Assembly (NCBI GenBank): GCA_020848455.1
Contig: JADLAB010000008.1
Span: 1 to 54,493, forward strand
Source of the DNA: Polyangiaceae bacterium
Lineage (GTDB): Bacteria; Myxococcota_A; Polyangia; Polyangiales; Polyangiaceae
Length of the DNA: 54,493 nucleotides
Direction: 5' to 3'
Part shown: piece after piece, positions 29,248 through 39,959 of the stretch
Layout of the letters: every line of letters begins with the position of its first letter
Numbering within the stretch: position 1 is the stretch's first letter
Notes under the pieces: generated by a model
Told to the model about the DNA's origin: nothing
Database searches by the model: none
The model's input: the letters and a program-made list of their open reading frames with translations, nothing else
Position numbers and translations under genes: made by a program

Positions 29248-29364
29248 CCGCCCGGCGTCGCTTATTTGCTCGCGGACGGGCGACTTGCACCGGTAGCATC
29301 AAAGTGCGGGCTGGCTGTAGCCCGGGGATGTGTACTGCGGCCGGGCCGCAGCTCGGAGGCGTGG

Positions 29365-31524
29365 ATGCGTACTGCTTATCGACGGAGTCTCGTTTGGGCC
29401 GTGCCCCTGGTCTTGGTCTTCGCTCAGTCGCAGGCCTGCAAGAGCGGGACCGACGACGGAGGCGGTGGCATCGGCGCGGCCGGGGGTGGGGGCGGCAACG
29501 CGCAGCAACCCGACGCCGACGGCGACGGCATCTCGGACGTCGACGAGGGCAGTGGCGCCGTGGACAGCGACGGCGACACCACGCCCGACTCCCTCGACGC
29601 CGACAGCGACGGCGACGGGATCCCGGATGCCGTCGAAGGGGGCGACGCCGACACCAACACGCCTCCGGTGGACAGCGACGCGGACGGCACGCCGGACTTT
29701 CGTGACCTCGACTCCGACGACAACGGCATCGCCGACGCGGTCGAGGGCGGCGACGACCTGGATGGCGACGGCACCGGCAGCTACGCCGACCTCGACAACG
29801 ACGGGGACCTCGTCCCGGACGTGGACGAGATCGCGGGCGCCGGCTCGGACAGCGACGGCAACGGCAGCGCCGACCCGCTCGGCAGCCCCGACCAGCCGGC
29901 CGACGGCGACGGCGACGGCACGCCGAACTACCTCGACCTCGACTCCGACGGCGACACCATCGCCGACGGCCAGGAGGGCGGCGTCGACACCGACCAGGAC
30001 GCCTTCCTCGATCGCTACGATCTCGACTCGGACAACGACGGCTTCACCGATGCAGAGGAGGCGGGCGACGCCGACCTCCTCACCCCGCCCATCGACTCCG
30101 ACCAGGACGGCACGCCGAACTACCTCGACCCCGACTCCGACAACGACGGCGTGAGCGATCTGCTCGAGCACGGCGCGGGCTCGGACCCGACCCAGGGCGA
30201 CAGCGACAACGACGGCGTGAGCGATCTCGTCGAGGTCGCGGCGGGCACGGACCCCAACGACCCGGCCGACAACCCCCAGGCGCACGGCAACTTCGTCTTC
30301 ATCGTGCCCTACCAGCAGCCCACGACCCCGCCGAAGGACACGCTGCACTTCCGCACCAGCGTGCAGTACGCCGACATCTACTTCAGCTTCGACACGACGG
30401 GCTCGATGAGCGCCGAGCTCACCGCCATGTCGAACGCGGCGACCGGTGTGCCGGCCATCATCGATGCGCTGCAGTGCAAGCCCGATCCCGCGAGCACGAC
30501 GTGCTCCATCGACTCGGACTGCCCGACCAACTACGTGTGCTTCACGGGCGCCTGCGTCGACGATCCGCTGGTGGCGAACGGGGGCGACGGCTGCATTCCC
30601 GACATGTGGACGGGCGCGGGGCGCTTCGACAACTGCAACACGTACCGCAACCTGCAGCACGTGCAGGCCAATCCGGCGCTCACCGCGGCCGCGATTCCGA
30701 CGACCACCGGCGGCGGCAGCGCCGAGGCGGTCGTGCAGGCCGCGGCCTGCGTGGCGAACGAGGCCATCTGCACCAACGCCAACCAGTGCAGCGCCGACCC
30801 GACCGTCGTCGGGCCGATCGGCTGCCCGGGCTACCGGCCCGAGGCGGTGCGCATGCTCGTGCAGATCACCGACGCCGACAACCAGGGCGGCACCTGTTCG
30901 GGCAGCGTGTCGAGCGTCCAGACGAGCGGCGACGCCCTCCAGGGCGCCGACATCAAGTTCATCAGCCTCTACGGCACGGGCGACGACTGCAACAACGCCT
31001 CGAGCCCGACCTGCTCGACGCTGTGCACGACGACGCAGTCCTGCGCCAGCCAGATCGGCGTCGCCTCCGGCACCGTCGATCAGAACAACAACCCGTTCGT
31101 CTACCCGGCGCTCGACGCTGCGGTCGTCGGCGCGACCGTCCAGGCGGTGCTCGACATCGCGCGCGGCGTGCCGCTCGACGTCACCATCGACGCGACCGAC
31201 GACCCGGCCGACGCCGTCGACGCCCTGCAGTTCATCGCCTTTCTCGAGGTGAACCTGAGCGGCGGCAGCTGCACCAACGTGAGCCCGGTCGCGGACAGCA
31301 ACGCCGACGGGCACGACGACGAGTTCCCGGCGCTGCTCGGCGGCACGCCCGTCTGCTGGGACGTGAACCCGGTGCCGCAGAACACCACGGTCCAGCCCAC
31401 GGACGCGCCGCAGCTCTACCGGGCGATCCTCACCGTGCGGGGCGACGGCTCGCCGCTCGACTCGCGCTCGGTGTACTTCCTCATCCCGCCGAAGCCGGCC
31501 GAGATCCCGCCGCCCCCGGCCTGA
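29365..31524 (+). CDS. Thrombospondin type 3 / VWA surface lipoprotein (CglD-like)
   Basis: 719 residues. The signal peptide ends in a non-canonical lipobox (QSQAC). A Gly-rich linker leads to about 270 residues of Asp-rich calcium repeats (DADGDGISDVDEG, DSDGDTTPDSLDADSDGDGI and so on), typical of thrombospondin type 3. A VWA domain starts near residue 330 with the MIDAS motif DTTGSM and contains many Cys that suggest disulfides (CKPDPASTTCSIDSDC). In Myxococcus xanthus the gliding lipoprotein CglD combines TSP3 and VWA parts, so an adhesion or motility role is reasonable but unproven. The ATG at 29365 has GGAGG 5 nt upstream. The gap 29248-29364 holds no clear promoter. Confidence 0.85.
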   Translation: MRTAYRRSLVWAVPLVLVFAQSQACKSGTDDGGGGIGAAGGGGGNAQQPDADGDGISDVDEGSGAVDSDGDTTPDSLDADSDGDGIPDAVEGGDADTNTPPVDSDADGTPDFRDLDSDDNGIADAVEGGDDLDGDGTGSYADLDNDGDLVPDVDEIAGAGSDSDGNGSADPLGSPDQPADGDGDGTPNYLDLDSDGDTIADGQEGGVDTDQDAFLDRYDLDSDNDGFTDAEEAGDADLLTPPIDSDQDGTPNYLDPDSDNDGVSDLLEHGAGSDPTQGDSDNDGVSDLVEVAAGTDPNDPADNPQAHGNFVFIVPYQQPTTPPKDTLHFRTSVQYADIYFSFDTTGSMSAELTAMSNAATGVPAIIDALQCKPDPASTTCSIDSDCPTNYVCFTGACVDDPLVANGGDGCIPDMWTGAGRFDNCNTYRNLQHVQANPALTAAAIPTTTGGGSAEAVVQAAACVANEAICTNANQCSADPTVVGPIGCPGYRPEAVRMLVQITDADNQGGTCSGSVSSVQTSGDALQGADIKFISLYGTGDDCNNASSPTCSTLCTTTQSCASQIGVASGTVDQNNNPFVYPALDAAVVGATVQAVLDIARGVPLDVTIDATDDPADAVDALQFIAFLEVNLSGGSCTNVSPVADSNADGHDDEFPALLGGTPVCWDVNPVPQNTTVQPTDAPQLYRAILTVRGDGSPLDSRSVYFLIPPKPAEIPPPPA

Positions 31525-34100: not shown

Positions 34101-35126
34101 TCACGGCTGCGGCAGGCTGCTCGCGCGGATCCAGAACCCGCCGCCGCCATCGGGCGGCATGACGCCGAGGCCCTCGGGGTACACGTTGAGCCACGCCCCG
34201 CCGCGATCCATCGGGAACACGCGCGCGCCGGCCTCCACGTAGCCGATGGGCTCGCCGTTCTCGGGCCGAGCGTACACGGGCACCTCGGTCGGCACCGTGA
34301 TGGCGGCGGGCGCGCCCTCGAGGGCGAGCGACTTCGCCACGAGCTGGCGCGGCTCGGGCAGGCTCGTGTCGAAGAGCTCGCCGGGCTTGAGCGGGTTGAG
34401 GTCGCTCGCGCGCGCCCACGCGTCGATGGTGATGTCGCCGCGGCCCTGCACGCGGACGAAGCCCGAGCGCCCCTCGCTCGCGTAGAAGAGCTTGCGCGCG
34501 TCCTCTTCGAGCTCGAGCGCGAACACCACGGCGCCGCTCGGGCCGTCGAAGAGCTCGAGCTTGTTCGTGCGCATCTCCCAGCCGCGGGCGTTCGCCGCGG
34601 GGCTCGCCTCGTCGGCGTGCGGCGGCACGAGCACGACCGCGTCGCAGCCCACGGTGGTGCGCAGCGCCTGCCCGCGCGAGCCCATGATGGCGTGCTCGAC
34701 GGTGAGGCTCGCGCCCTTCGCCTCCACGATGCGCAGCCGCTGGCCCATCGTGATCCACAGCGCTTGGCCCCGCACCGGCAGATCGCGCGCCGCGAAGGTC
34801 TCGACGGCGGACAGCGGCGCGTAGCCCTCGATGCGCACGTGGCCGCCTCCCGCGCCACCCGCCGTCGTCAAGCGCACGCGCCCCTGCTGCGGGTCGACGG
34901 GCAGCTCGCTCACGCGCAGAGGCACGAGGGCGCCGGTGAGCTTGGCTACGACCTTGCCGCCGCTCGCGCGGTCGTGGACCTCGCTGTCCGGTCGGGCGGG
35001 CGCGCGCCCCTCGAGGACGCAGGTCGAGGGGGCGGGCGGCGGGTCGTCGGCACGCGTCGTGCCGCTGCCGAGGAGCGCGCACGCCGCGGCCGCGAGACCG
35101 GCGATGAGGGCGATTCGTGTCGTCAT
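34101..35126 (-). CDS. Exported SH3-like (bacterial SH3) repeat protein
   Basis: 341 residues. A signal peptide with cleavage near GTTRADDP precedes a mature protein of short beta segments. Several have the look of SH3b units: SEVHDRASGGKVVAKLTG, LELFDGPSGAVVFALELEED, and EVPVYARPENGEPIGYVEAG followed by GGAWLNVYPEG. SH3b domains often bind cell-wall or protein ligands. The family call is by pattern only. GGGA lies 5 nt before the ATG at 35126. The gene is first of a probable two-gene operon with the HEAT protein and is divergent from the DHH-like gene (151-bp gap without a clear promoter). Confidence 0.7.
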   Translation of the reverse strand: MTTRIALIAGLAAAACALLGSGTTRADDPPPAPSTCVLEGRAPARPDSEVHDRASGGKVVAKLTGALVPLRVSELPVDPQQGRVRLTTAGGAGGGHVRIEGYAPLSAVETFAARDLPVRGQALWITMGQRLRIVEAKGASLTVEHAIMGSRGQALRTTVGCDAVVLVPPHADEASPAANARGWEMRTNKLELFDGPSGAVVFALELEEDARKLFYASEGRSGFVRVQGRGDITIDAWARASDLNPLKPGELFDTSLPEPRQLVAKSLALEGAPAAITVPTEVPVYARPENGEPIGYVEAGARVFPMDRGGAWLNVYPEGLGVMPPDGGGGFWIRASSLPQP

Positions 35127-35277: not shown

Positions 35278-36225
35278 ATGACGAGCCGCCGCGTCGCCGA
35301 CACCGCCCTCTGCTTCACGACGCCCCGCAAGCTGCCCCGGGCGAGCGATCTCCACGGTCGCGTGGTGGTGCTCGACATCGCCTTCGCGGCAGAGGCCGGC
35401 GGCAGCCGGCACGGCTTCGAGCAGGGGACCTTGCGGTTCATCGAGGCGCTCGGCGAGCGGCTCGTGTGCTGGGTGGATCACCACGACAGCTCCCATCACG
35501 CTCGCTTCGCGTCGGACCCCCGCTTCCACCTCGCGCGCAAGGCCGAGCACGGCGCGTGCCCCGAGATGGTCACGCCCGAGCTCGTGGCACGCACGCCGCG
35601 CGCCGACACCCTCGTGTGCCACGGTGACTTCGACGGCCTGTGCGCGGCGGCGAAGTGGCTGCGCGGCGGCCGCGAGCCGTACCCGGGCTGCGACGACGAC
35701 GCCCGGGCGGTCGACACCTGCATCGGCGAGCCGAGCCCGCTCGGACGGCGCCTCGAGCGCGCGCTGCGCGCCCGGCCCCGCGACCACGGGCTCTGCGCCG
35801 AGCTCGTGGCGTTCCTCGCCGACGGGGCGCGCGATGAACACGCGCTCCGGCACTTCGACGCCGTCGCGGGCGCGCTCGAGCCGCTCGAGCGCGAGGCCGA
35901 GCGGCTCGCGGCGGGCTACCGGATGCTCGGGCCGGAGCTCTGCCTCGTCGAGGTTCCGCCCGGCACGCCGAGCTACGACAAGACCTACCTGCTGCTGCTC
36001 GGGCAGCGCCTGCGCCTCATGGCCGCCGTGTTGGACGGCGACACCGCGACCTTCGCGGCGCCCTTCGACAGCGGCGTCGACTTCCTCGCGCGCTTCGGCC
36101 TCTCGGGCGGCATGCCGACGCGCGTGTCGGTGCGTCGCGCCGACCTGCCCGGTGCGCTGGCGGCCCTCGGCGTGGCGGGCGCGCTCGCAGCGCGGGCCGC
36201 CGCGCCCGCACCGAATGACCCTTGA
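35278..36225 (+). CDS. DHH phosphoesterase-like protein with permuted motif order
   Basis: 315 residues, cytoplasmic. Three motifs of the DHH superfamily (RecJ, NrnA, NrnB) are recognisable but in a different order. A strand ending in Asp, RVVVLDIAF (Asp33), resembles motif II. The DHH itself, LVCWVDHHDSSHH (67-69), comes 34 residues later, the normal motif II-III spacing. The metal-binding HGDFDGLCAAAKWL (115-128), which resembles motif I and is normally first, comes last. A helical region (LCAELVAFLADG) and a C-terminal half with SGVDFLARFGLSGGMP follow. If active it would be a Mn-dependent phosphodiesterase or exonuclease. The ATG at 35278 is the first available; no ribosome site is obvious. 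Confidence 0.6.
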   Translation: MTSRRVADTALCFTTPRKLPRASDLHGRVVVLDIAFAAEAGGSRHGFEQGTLRFIEALGERLVCWVDHHDSSHHARFASDPRFHLARKAEHGACPEMVTPELVARTPRADTLVCHGDFDGLCAAAKWLRGGREPYPGCDDDARAVDTCIGEPSPLGRRLERALRARPRDHGLCAELVAFLADGARDEHALRHFDAVAGALEPLEREAERLAAGYRMLGPELCLVEVPPGTPSYDKTYLLLLGQRLRLMAAVLDGDTATFAAPFDSGVDFLARFGLSGGMPTRVSVRRADLPGALAALGVAGALAARAAAPAPNDP

Positions 36226-37572: not shown

Positions 37573-37893
37573 TTTCAGTTTTCAGTTTTCAGTTTTCAGT
37601 TTTCAGTTCAGCCAGAGCGGCCCTGCGGGCCGAGCAGACGCCTCTCCGTATCCGACTCCGGGGCTGACGGCTGAGAACTGACGACTTCTTCTCTGTTCCG
37701 ACTCCGGGGCTGACGACTGACGGCTGAGAACTGACGACTTCTTCTCTGTTCCGACTCCGGGGCTGACGACTGACCACTGAGAACCGACGACTTCTTCTCT
37801 GTTTCCGACTCCGGGGCTGACGGCTGAGAACCGACGACTTCTTCTCTGTTTCCGACTCCGGGGCTGACGACTGACAACTGACAACTGACAACT
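37573..37893. repeat. Inverted heptamer arrays enclosing a five-copy ~50-bp tandem repeat
   Basis: TTTCAGT occurs five times in a row at 37573-37607. At the other end GACGACT and three GACAACT occupy 37866-37893. The two arrays are inverted complements with one mismatch per heptamer. Between them, a unit beginning TCCGACTCCGGGGCTGACG recurs at 37651, 37697, 37750, 37804 and 37851; the four complete periods are 46, 53, 54 and 47 bp, differing mainly by one heptamer. The block starts one base after the VWA stop and ends two bases before the purC stop, so it occupies the whole 324-bp gap. It codes for nothing supportable. Confidence 0.9.
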
Positions 37894-37895
37894 TC

Positions 37896-38861
37896 TCAGC
37901 CGAGCCCGAGGTTGCGGCGCATGCGCGCGATGGGCTCCTCGAGGTTCGGCACGAAGGCCTCGCCCGTGACGGCCTCGCACGCCTCGATGTAGCGGCGGCT
38001 CGACTCGATCTTCACCGCGTCCGGGATGTCGGGGATGGGGCCGTCGCCCGTGAAGCCGCGCTCGGCGAGGAAGCGGCGCAGGTACTCCTTGTCGAAGCTC
38101 TCGGGCTCGAGGCCCTGGGCCGCGCGCTCGGCGTAGCTCGTCGCGAACCAGTAGCGCGACGAGTCCGGCGTGTGGATCTCGTCGATCACGCGGATCGCGC
38201 CGTCGCGGTCGCGGCCGAACTCGTACTTGGTGTCCACGAGGATGAGCCCGCGGCTCGCGCAGTGCGCCTGGCCGAAGCGGAACAGGCTCATCGCCATCGC
38301 GGCGGCGGCGTCGAAGTCGGCGCTCGTCACGGCGCCCGACCGGATGAGCTCCGCGCGCGACAGGGACACGTCGTGGCCGCCCTGCGGTGCCTTCGTGCTC
38401 GGCGTGAGCAGCGGCTCGGGCAGCCGGTCGTTCTTCTTCAGCCCCTCGGGCAGCGTGTGGCCGCAGAACACGCGCGCGCCGGCGGCGTAGTGCGTCCAGA
38501 TGCTCGTCTTCGTCACGCCGGTGAGGTAGCCGCGCACCACGAACTCCGCCCCGAGCGGCGTGCACTCGCGCGCCTCGATGACGTTCGGGTCGGGCACCGA
38601 CAGGACGTGGTTCGGCGCGATGTCGGCCGTGCGCCGGAACCAGAAGTCCGCCACCCACTGCAGCAGCTGGCCCTTGAGCGGCAGCGTGCCGAGCACGCGG
38701 TCGAAGGCGCTCACGCGGTCCGTCGTCACGAGGTAGCGACGGCCGTCCGCGGTCGTGTAGTTGTCGCGCACCTTGCCTTCGTAGCGGCGCCCGAGAGCGT
38801 CGAAGTGTGTCGCGCGGACGGGCTTGTCGAGGGCTTGGCGGATGACGGAGGGGTCGACCAT
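37896..38861 (-). CDS. purC: Phosphoribosylaminoimidazole-succinocarboxamide synthase PurC
   Basis: 321 residues. It joins CAIR and aspartate using ATP in purine synthesis. Motifs: GRRYEGKVRDNYTTADGRRY at the N-terminus, TTDRVSAFD, VVRGYLTG, GLILVDTKYEFG and IHTPDSSRYW. It is longer than the ~240-residue E. coli type and fits the class that includes yeast Ade1. The ATG at 38861 has GGGA 5 nt upstream and a good promoter directly before it. It is divergent from mdh. Its stop codon adjoins the heptamer repeat array. Confidence 0.95.
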   Translation of the reverse strand: MVDPSVIRQALDKPVRATHFDALGRRYEGKVRDNYTTADGRRYLVTTDRVSAFDRVLGTLPLKGQLLQWVADFWFRRTADIAPNHVLSVPDPNVIEARECTPLGAEFVVRGYLTGVTKTSIWTHYAAGARVFCGHTLPEGLKKNDRLPEPLLTPSTKAPQGGHDVSLSRAELIRSGAVTSADFDAAAAMAMSLFRFGQAHCASRGLILVDTKYEFGRDRDGAIRVIDEIHTPDSSRYWFATSYAERAAQGLEPESFDKEYLRRFLAERGFTGDGPIPDIPDAVKIESSRRYIEACEAVTGEAFVPNLEEPIARMRRNLGLG

Positions 38862-38981: not shown

Positions 38982-39010
38982 TTGGAGCGCCGGCGGCGCG
39001 GTGGTACACG
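38982..39010 (+). promoter_or_regulatory. Promoter of mdh, leaderless type
   Basis: TTGGAG (38982-38987), 17 nt, TACACG (39005-39010), then 7 nt to the ATG at 39018. No ribosome site is present. Confidence 0.4.
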
Positions 39011-39017
39011 CCGGCCC

Positions 39018-39959
39018 ATGAGCACCCGCAAAAAGATCGCACTCATTGGCGCAGGCAACATCGGTGGCGAGCTCGCTGCAGCCCTCGCTCGACGCGAGCT
39101 CGGCGACATCGTCCTGTTCGACATCCCGCAGAAGGAGGACTTCGCCAAAGGCAAGGCACTCGACCTCGAGCAGAACGCGTCGATCGAGGGCTACGACGCC
39201 TCGATCAAGGGCACGGCCAGCTGGGCCGACTGCGCCGGCGCCGACGTGCTGATCGTCACCGCCGGCATCCCGCGTAAACCGGGCCAGAGCCGCAACGACC
39301 TCGTCGCCACCAACCTGCCCATCATCCGCAACGTGGCGGACAACGCCAAGGAGCACTGCCCGGGCGCGTTCGTCATCGTGATCTCGAACCCGCTCGACGC
39401 CATGGTCTACGAGTTCAAGCGCCGCACGGGCTTCCCGCGCGAGCGCGTGGTGGGCATGGCCGGCGTGCTCGACAGCGCGCGCTTCACGCTCTTCCTCGCG
39501 CGCGAGATGGGCGTCTCCGTGAAGGACGTGCGCGCCATGGTGCTCGGCGGCCACGGCGACGACATGGTGCCGGTGCTCTCGGCGTGCACCATCAACGGCG
39601 TCCGGGTCAGCGAGATGGTGGCCAAGGACCGGCTCGACGCGATCATCGCGCGCACGCGCGGCGGCGGCGGCGAGATCGTCAAGCTCATGGGCACGAGCGC
39701 CTACTACGCGCCCGCCCTCAGCGCCGTCGCGATGGCCGAGGCGTACCTGCTCAACCAGAAACGCCTGCTGCCCTGCGCGGCGTTCCTGCAGGGCGAGTAC
39801 GGCTACAGCGACCTCTACATGGGCGTGCCCGTCATCATCGGCGGCGGCGGCCTCGAGCGCGTGGTCGAGATCGCGCTCAGCGACGACGAGAAGCAGATGC
39901 TCGCCAAGAGCGCCAAGAGCGTGCGCGAGATCGTCGACATCGTCCGCGCGCAGACCTGA
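39018..39959 (+). CDS. mdh: Malate dehydrogenase (LDH-like type)
   Basis: 313 residues. NAD-dependent malate to oxaloacetate, TCA cycle. Motifs: IALIGAGNIGGELA (NAD loop), FDIPQKEDFAKGKALDL (Asp at the strand end specifying NAD), AGIPRKPGQSRNDL (mobile loop with substrate Arg), ISNPLDAM, MAGVLDSARF (Asp-Arg pair) and LGGHGDDMVP (catalytic His). This is the lactate-dehydrogenase-like MDH class common in myxobacteria and alphaproteobacteria. The shorter start at 39018 is supported by the promoter, which places the transcript start at the ATG. Confidence 0.95.
   Translation: MSTRKKIALIGAGNIGGELAAALARRELGDIVLFDIPQKEDFAKGKALDLEQNASIEGYDASIKGTASWADCAGADVLIVTAGIPRKPGQSRNDLVATNLPIIRNVADNAKEHCPGAFVIVISNPLDAMVYEFKRRTGFPRERVVGMAGVLDSARFTLFLAREMGVSVKDVRAMVLGGHGDDMVPVLSACTINGVRVSEMVAKDRLDAIIARTRGGGGEIVKLMGTSAYYAPALSAVAMAEAYLLNQKRLLPCAAFLQGEYGYSDLYMGVPVIIGGGGLERVVEIALSDDEKQMLAKSAKSVREIVDIVRAQT

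Follow-up and report, generated by a model that had tools for sequence, protein, structure and literature searches.

Locus and gene

The window analyzed here, the whole stretch of 54,493 nucleotides from a Polyangiaceae bacterium, carries on its forward strand a gene at 35278..36225, stop codon included, whose coding part (35278-36222) translates into 315 amino acids. Its G+C content by codon position is 0.78/0.55/0.94, and this pattern together with its homologues makes it a real coding gene. Along the chain come Asp33 (within VVVLDIAF), then Asp67-His68-His69 (within CWVDHHDSSHH), and then His115-x-Asp117-x-Asp119-Gly120 (H115-G-D117-F-D119-G120, within HGDFDGLCAAAKWL), residue numbers that the original prediction had read correctly from the translation. 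RecJ, NrnA, GdpP, Cdc45, and the type II pyrophosphatases have a common motif order, I-II-III-IV, on which family searches depend. The canonical catalytic domain runs from beta1 (motif I) through alpha1, beta2, beta3 (motif II), beta4 (motif III), and beta5 to motif IV, and is followed by the DHHA1 domain.

The window protein does not follow this order. The elements described here all lie on the forward strand, with secondary structure taken from a DSSP assignment of the predicted model. Residues 9-20 (35302..35337) hold a strand (9-13) read as canonical beta2 and the segment TPRKLP, in which P16, R17, L19, and P20 are invariant in an alignment of 80 sequences (R17 and P20 also in one of 95). 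They are followed by residues 29-33, VVVLD (35362..35376), read as beta3, where D33 of motif II follows the modeled strand 29-32, and by residues 62-70, LVCWVDHHD (35461..35487), read as beta4, where D67-H68-H69 of motif III stand at the end of the modeled strand 62-67. Residues 83-97 (35524..35568) comprise a strand read as beta5 (83-85) and an HGACPEM segment that resembles canonical GAT(S/A) in a by-eye comparison with the “GATSTI” of canonical members L153-L160. Next comes what would be a transposed beta1-alpha1 unit, residues 106-134 (35593..35679). It has the layout of motif I, with HxDxDG (H115 to G120, 35620-35637; invariant in 95 sequences) set between a strand (111-114) and a helix (118-128). 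Residues 139-147, DDDARAVDT (35692..35718), belong to a helix (138-147) ending in D146-T147, a pair similar to the “(T/S/A)DT” found in canonical members L152-L163. We assign it to motif IV, which the original prediction had not named, with D146 as a candidate metal ligand. Linker helices (154-165, 170-181, 187-197, and 200-211; residues 154-211, 35737..35910) then lead into a predicted DHHA1-like substrate-binding domain at residues about 217-300 (35926..36177), placed by a fold match to Staphylococcus aureus NrnA and containing an invariant GMPT (residues 278-281, 36109-36120).

The neighborhood was compared in 79 loci and the window. A GNAT-like gene (e.g., L102:3510-4481; TIGR03827 match with an E-value of 1.4e-8, below cut-off) immediately follows the gene, in the same orientation, in 34 loci and is absent beside the window gene. 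Likewise in 34 loci, a conserved ORF with a signal-peptide-like start lies upstream on the opposite strand, in divergent orientation; in the window it occupies 34101-35082 (minus strand). SAICAR synthase (PurC) is found near the gene in 36 loci and a HisI/HisE fusion in 12. The window's purC lies at 37899-38823 on the minus strand (by homology to L072), and a malate/lactate dehydrogenase gene follows at 38982-39956 on the plus strand. Two repeat-rich stretches were also seen in the window: a 53-base tandem repeat of 4.5 copies between a VWA-domain gene and purC (37664-37896), and a long plus-strand ORF (29266-31524) that contains a 108-base tandem repeat along with numerous repeats of the DxDGD/DSDxDG type.

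Distribution and conservation

Homologues of the 315-residue protein were found in 57 of the 59 nearest genomes and in 243 of the 289 genomes of the class, with one match per genome in most; it is a single-copy gene in most genomes of class Polyangia. Across the phylum, 48 of 235 genomes had a homologue; almost all of these belong to the same class, and the rest to a single family outside it. Each genome in this phylum scan gave either a match with E < 1e-94 or none, so the family is sharply bounded. A scan of contigs from 84,980 species returned 233 loci; the best 80 of these belong, by title, to Polyangiaceae, Sorangium, Polyangium, Labilithrix, Sandaracinaceae, and other myxobacteria, as well as to deltaproteobacterial or loosely labeled MAGs. 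These titles are also the source of the class name Polyangia for the genomes counted above. No homologue was found among the plasmids, phages, and viral contigs searched.

To describe conservation, we used an alignment of 95 sequences that takes in the most divergent members, drawn from the class's other families and from the one family outside it. All of the motif residues named above (D33, D67, H68, H69, H115, D117, D119, and G120), along with D70, are invariant in 95 of 95. The same is true of R17, P20, K126, W127, D139, D141, D146, R164, T236, Q243, and the GMPT at 278-281, and T147 is kept in 94. Every homologue aligned has the order II-III-I-IV. The order II-III-I noticed in the original prediction is consequently a conserved feature of the family and not a chance arrangement in one protein, since its residues are invariant in 95 homologues. 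An assembly artifact or frameshift as the cause of the motif order was likewise ruled out by the identical order in all homologues.

Sequence searches

Searches of the window protein against Pfam, NCBIfam, and the PDB sequences gave no significant match. Among 80 members in natural order, eight touched the Pfam DHH family (PF01368) with a best E-value of 0.011, and neither the window protein nor any other member reached its curated cut-off of 28.1 bits. There was no Pfam match to DHHA1 (PF02272) for the window protein, nor one at its locus in the genome scan; a DHHA1 match elsewhere in the genome (G000:C217) is, by sequence, an alanyl-tRNA-editing-like ORF rather than an additional DHH enzyme. 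Scanning every member against NCBIfam and PHROGs yielded just weak matches with no relevant name. Because neither the motif order nor the Pfam score is that of the canonical families, the protein is set apart from those described, even though its predicted working is DHH-DHHA1-like.

If the motif-I unit has been transposed, moving it back to the front should bring the protein closer to DHH profiles, as the original prediction proposed. With residues 106/107-134 moved to the front, Pfam DHH matches among 24 members rose from 2/24 (best E-value 0.15) to 10/24 (best E-value 0.0014), in a comparison of rotated sequences trimmed to 166 residues with full-length natural ones. A length-matched set gave 2/5 rotated versus 0/5 natural, and the rotated matches spanned the artificial joint. 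Where bits were shown, rotated queries scored 13-14 against the cut-off of 28.1, and these matches remain far from secure. This gain was seen with Pfam but not with other methods. In hhalign comparisons with narrow canonical alignments, we obtained weak single-motif matches and no gain from rotation. When successive segments along the chain were transposed and scored with an HMM of about 30 canonical sequences, the predicted segment was unremarkable and moving 128-156 scored higher. Profile searches of the PDB sequences found no DHH chain in natural order and likewise none after rotation. When the parts were aligned separately, the motif-I segment alone fell in register with motif I of the RecJ, NrnA, and L165-type groups, and the segment with motifs II and III fell in register with their DHH.

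Structural comparison

An AlphaFold2 model of the full protein, built with 80 homologues, has a pLDDT of 94.2 and a pTM of 0.90. Its strands lie at 9-13, 29-32, 62-67, 83-85, and 111-114; beyond them come helices and the second domain. The fold comparison with NrnA and RecJ that had been suggested came out as expected for a DHH phosphoesterase-like protein: this confident model matched NrnA and RecJ/Cdc45 structures, and its matches were overwhelmingly DHH-DHHA1 proteins. Foldseek gave nine matches with E < 0.001, all to DHH proteins, and the 50 VIA-align matches listed were, so far as titles tell, all DHH proteins too, including RecJ, Cdc45, NrnA, PggH, GdpP, and DhhP. The best VIA-align match was 8a8k (Z 14.5, rmsd 3.5, 243 residues aligned, model 5-300 against chain 23-315). 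For the C-terminal domain, model residues 199-300 aligned with residues 195-311 of S. aureus NrnA (8iu7_B; Z 9.1, rmsd 2.9, 98 aligned), and in the model this domain has the DHHA1 fold. A Foldseek search of viral models also found DHH proteins, for example, NrnB of Bacillus phage AR9 (E-value 1.2e-4).

Where these alignments begin is informative for the two targets whose motif-I position is known, 8a8k and 5ipp. That with 8a8k starts at residue 23 and that with Bacillus subtilis NrnA (5ipp) at residue 42, while motif I is H6/D8/D10 in the former (PMC10322725) and H20/D24/D26 in the latter (PMC5593865). Since both alignments begin past motif I, the N-terminus of the window protein would be the part that canonically comes just after it. 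The parallel sheet of the DHH domain consists of five strands in the order 2-1-3-4-5, as shown for Cdc45 (PMC4873980). In the model, strands 9-13, 29-32, 62-67, and 83-85 correspond to beta2-beta5, and because this sheet order leaves no other strand for the interior beta1 slot, the motif-I strand 111-114 would fill it, most likely lying between beta2 (9-13) and beta3 (29-32).

The DHH domain modeled alone (pLDDT 94.4) was far less conspicuous. Its best VIA-align match was again 8a8k (Z 6.7, 5-185 against 23-183), the further DHH match was a weak one to 5cet, and none of the Foldseek matches with a useful E-value was a DHH protein. A permutation would explain this near-invisibility to order-dependent aligners, but a different Rossmann-like fold would explain it equally, so it is not proof. 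The isolated domain also recurrently drew weak matches to Mur-ligase C-terminal domains (3mvn, 4qdi, 6h5e, 8v8y, 7d27, and others; Z about 3-5). In MurT, the strand order of this domain is beta14-15-19-16-17-18, so that the final strand lies between strands two and three of the domain (PMC6085368). This is the order predicted for the permuted DHH domain, which is supporting but not decisive, as Z-scores of 3-5 may reflect a mere common arrangement.

Interpretation

Taken together, the 315-residue protein is probably a DHH-DHHA1 phosphoesterase that uses two metals and whose catalytic domain is permuted to the order II-III-I-IV. The circular permutation of the core proposed in the original prediction is supported in a refined form: the transposed part would strictly be the beta1-alpha1 unit, with motif IV and DHHA1 staying in place. 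The unit (about 106-134) would have shifted behind beta5, giving a chain of beta2-II-III-beta5-I-IV-DHHA1. This arrangement could have arisen if the initial part of the domain was duplicated in tandem and opposite ends were then lost. In the folded protein, the metal ligands would be gathered at the C-terminal edge of neighboring parallel strands. Homology with B. subtilis NrnA would assign H68, D119, D33, and D146 to metal 1 and D117 and H115 to metal 2, with H69 touching the substrate. The enzyme would bind a small nucleotide through its DHHA1-like domain and hydrolyze a phosphoester by means of a metal-activated water.

The same residues can be arranged into a different story, in which a DHH-like domain lost its canonical motif I and HGDFDG stands at the place of motif IV, having converged on the look of motif I. 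We keep this reading because D117 and D119 sit, uncorrected, at close to the canonical distance from motif III to motif IV. HGDFDG follows His69 by 46-50 residues, and the second His of DHH is 50 residues from motif IV in MtPAPP, the protein of 8a8k (H77-D127; PMC10322725), and 52 in B. subtilis NrnA (H104-D156; PMC5593865). The sequential structural alignments, moreover, proceed without interruption from model residue 5 onward. However, the canonical motif IV Asp follows a helix, whereas the HxDxDG loop sits between strand 111-114 and helix 118-128 in the manner of motif I, and motif I of three canonical groups aligns with the segment in register. Motif IV has its own candidate in the invariant D146-T147, which closes a helix, and H69 and D146 are 48 residues apart once the 29-residue unit 106-134 is removed. 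A lost motif I would also leave the interior beta1 position of the 2-1-3-4-5 sheet empty. We consider such convergence unlikely. Equally improbable, in our judgment, is that the fold is a permuted DHH fold but serves a noncatalytic protein, either a pseudoenzyme or a regulator that binds nucleotides, like Cdc45. Cdc45 proteins are indeed among the structural matches, and neither the GGGH motif of DHHA1 nor the RxRxR arginines are kept, but every candidate metal ligand is invariant in 95 sequences, unlike what is seen in a decaying active site.

For the permuted phosphoesterase, the substrate can be named only tentatively. The likeliest candidates are 3'-phosphoadenosine-5'-phosphate (pAp) and dinucleotides, for example pApA, given that the protein with the best fold match is a phosphatase of pAp. 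The DHHA1 motif GGGH reads GGMP in the permuted family and the RxRxR motif is absent from the alignment; with these changes, including the missing NrnA arginines, the substrate may be held differently. A somewhat weaker possibility is that the chemistry is the same and the main substrate is c-di-AMP/pApA or nanoRNA instead of pAp. A diadenylate cyclase family was matched in 20 of 20 relatives tested (19 above cut-off), and the protein's own genome has a PgpH-type family match beside its diadenylate cyclase match. PgpH-type enzymes make pApA, for which a second enzyme is needed, and the only canonical DHH (PF01368) match in this genome is a RecJ-like ORF (L149). On the other hand, Orn-type nanoRNases can clear both pApA and nanoRNA, and an Orn-type match is present in this genome and above cut-off in 12 of the 20 relatives. 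The specificity of the best fold match for pAp also speaks against this alternative. CysQ-like relatives occur in all 20 genomes tested, mostly below cut-off, so that no substrate is obviously orphaned. A role as replacement for a missing nanoRNase was ruled out by the Orn of the protein's own genome. The nucleotide enzymes of that genome point to nucleotide turnover without picking a substrate.

Viewed across the class, the permuted DHH domain is probably a single-copy core enzyme of Polyangia in which the metal ligands are reassembled in space, and it is undescribed within our searches. The original prediction knew of no described family with this order, and none was found in the parts of the literature covered; no text searched there brought circularly permuted proteins together with both DHH and RecJ. 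In one jumbo-phage paper that mentions DHH, phosphoesterase, and “circular permutation,” the permutation concerns methylases. A class-wide enzyme of order II-III-I-IV escapes both Pfam and NCBIfam. If the interpretation is true, transposing the beta1-alpha1 unit is compatible with the DHH fold and its two-metal site. Transposed units are known in other Rossmann-like folds. Unannotated proteins may then include further DHH enzymes of permuted order, and Polyangia would have a likely nucleotide phosphoesterase.

Comparison with known systems

The closest structural counterpart is MtPAPP, the DHH-family PAP phosphatase of the archaeon Methanothermococcus thermolithotrophicus (PDB 8a8k; PMC10322725). 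Both proteins combine a DHH domain, a linker, and DHHA1, both have the same types of metal ligand (assigned by homology in ours), and both can hardly be aligned by sequence to DHH proteins. MtPAPP differs in having an N-terminal motif I (H6, D8, D10) and the order I-II-III-IV, and the two are 12-14% identical. NrnA/DhhP proteins (B. subtilis NrnA, PDB 5j21/5ipp; PMC5593865) have a motif I of the H-x3-D-x-D type and share with the permuted protein such a motif, the Asp of motif II, the DHH, the Asp-Thr of motif IV, and the DHHA1 domain. They keep the canonical order, however, and carry the GGGH and RxRxR that the permuted protein lacks. With RecJ/Cdc45 (Methanothermobacter RecJ-Cdc45, PDB 7bih), the DHH-DHHA1 fold is common (Z 12.6 over 244 residues), whereas the order is canonical, there are extra domains or insertions, and the role is in single-strand DNA.

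Some Myxococcota also have a canonical-order DHH protein (FNGDADGICAL ... VDHHFAG; L161, L165-L172), which is patchy, in 7 of 140 Myxococcota genomes, and has no more than weak NCBIfam matches. By eye, this L161/L165 type offers the closest local sequences to the permuted protein: GDADGICALTQLRNAEP resembles GDFDGLCAAAKWLRGGREP, and its GVKRDIALV..LTVLDVSF resembles TTPRKLPRA..VVVLDIAF of the permuted protein. It differs in its order, I-II-III, and in having GGGR where the permuted protein has GGMP.
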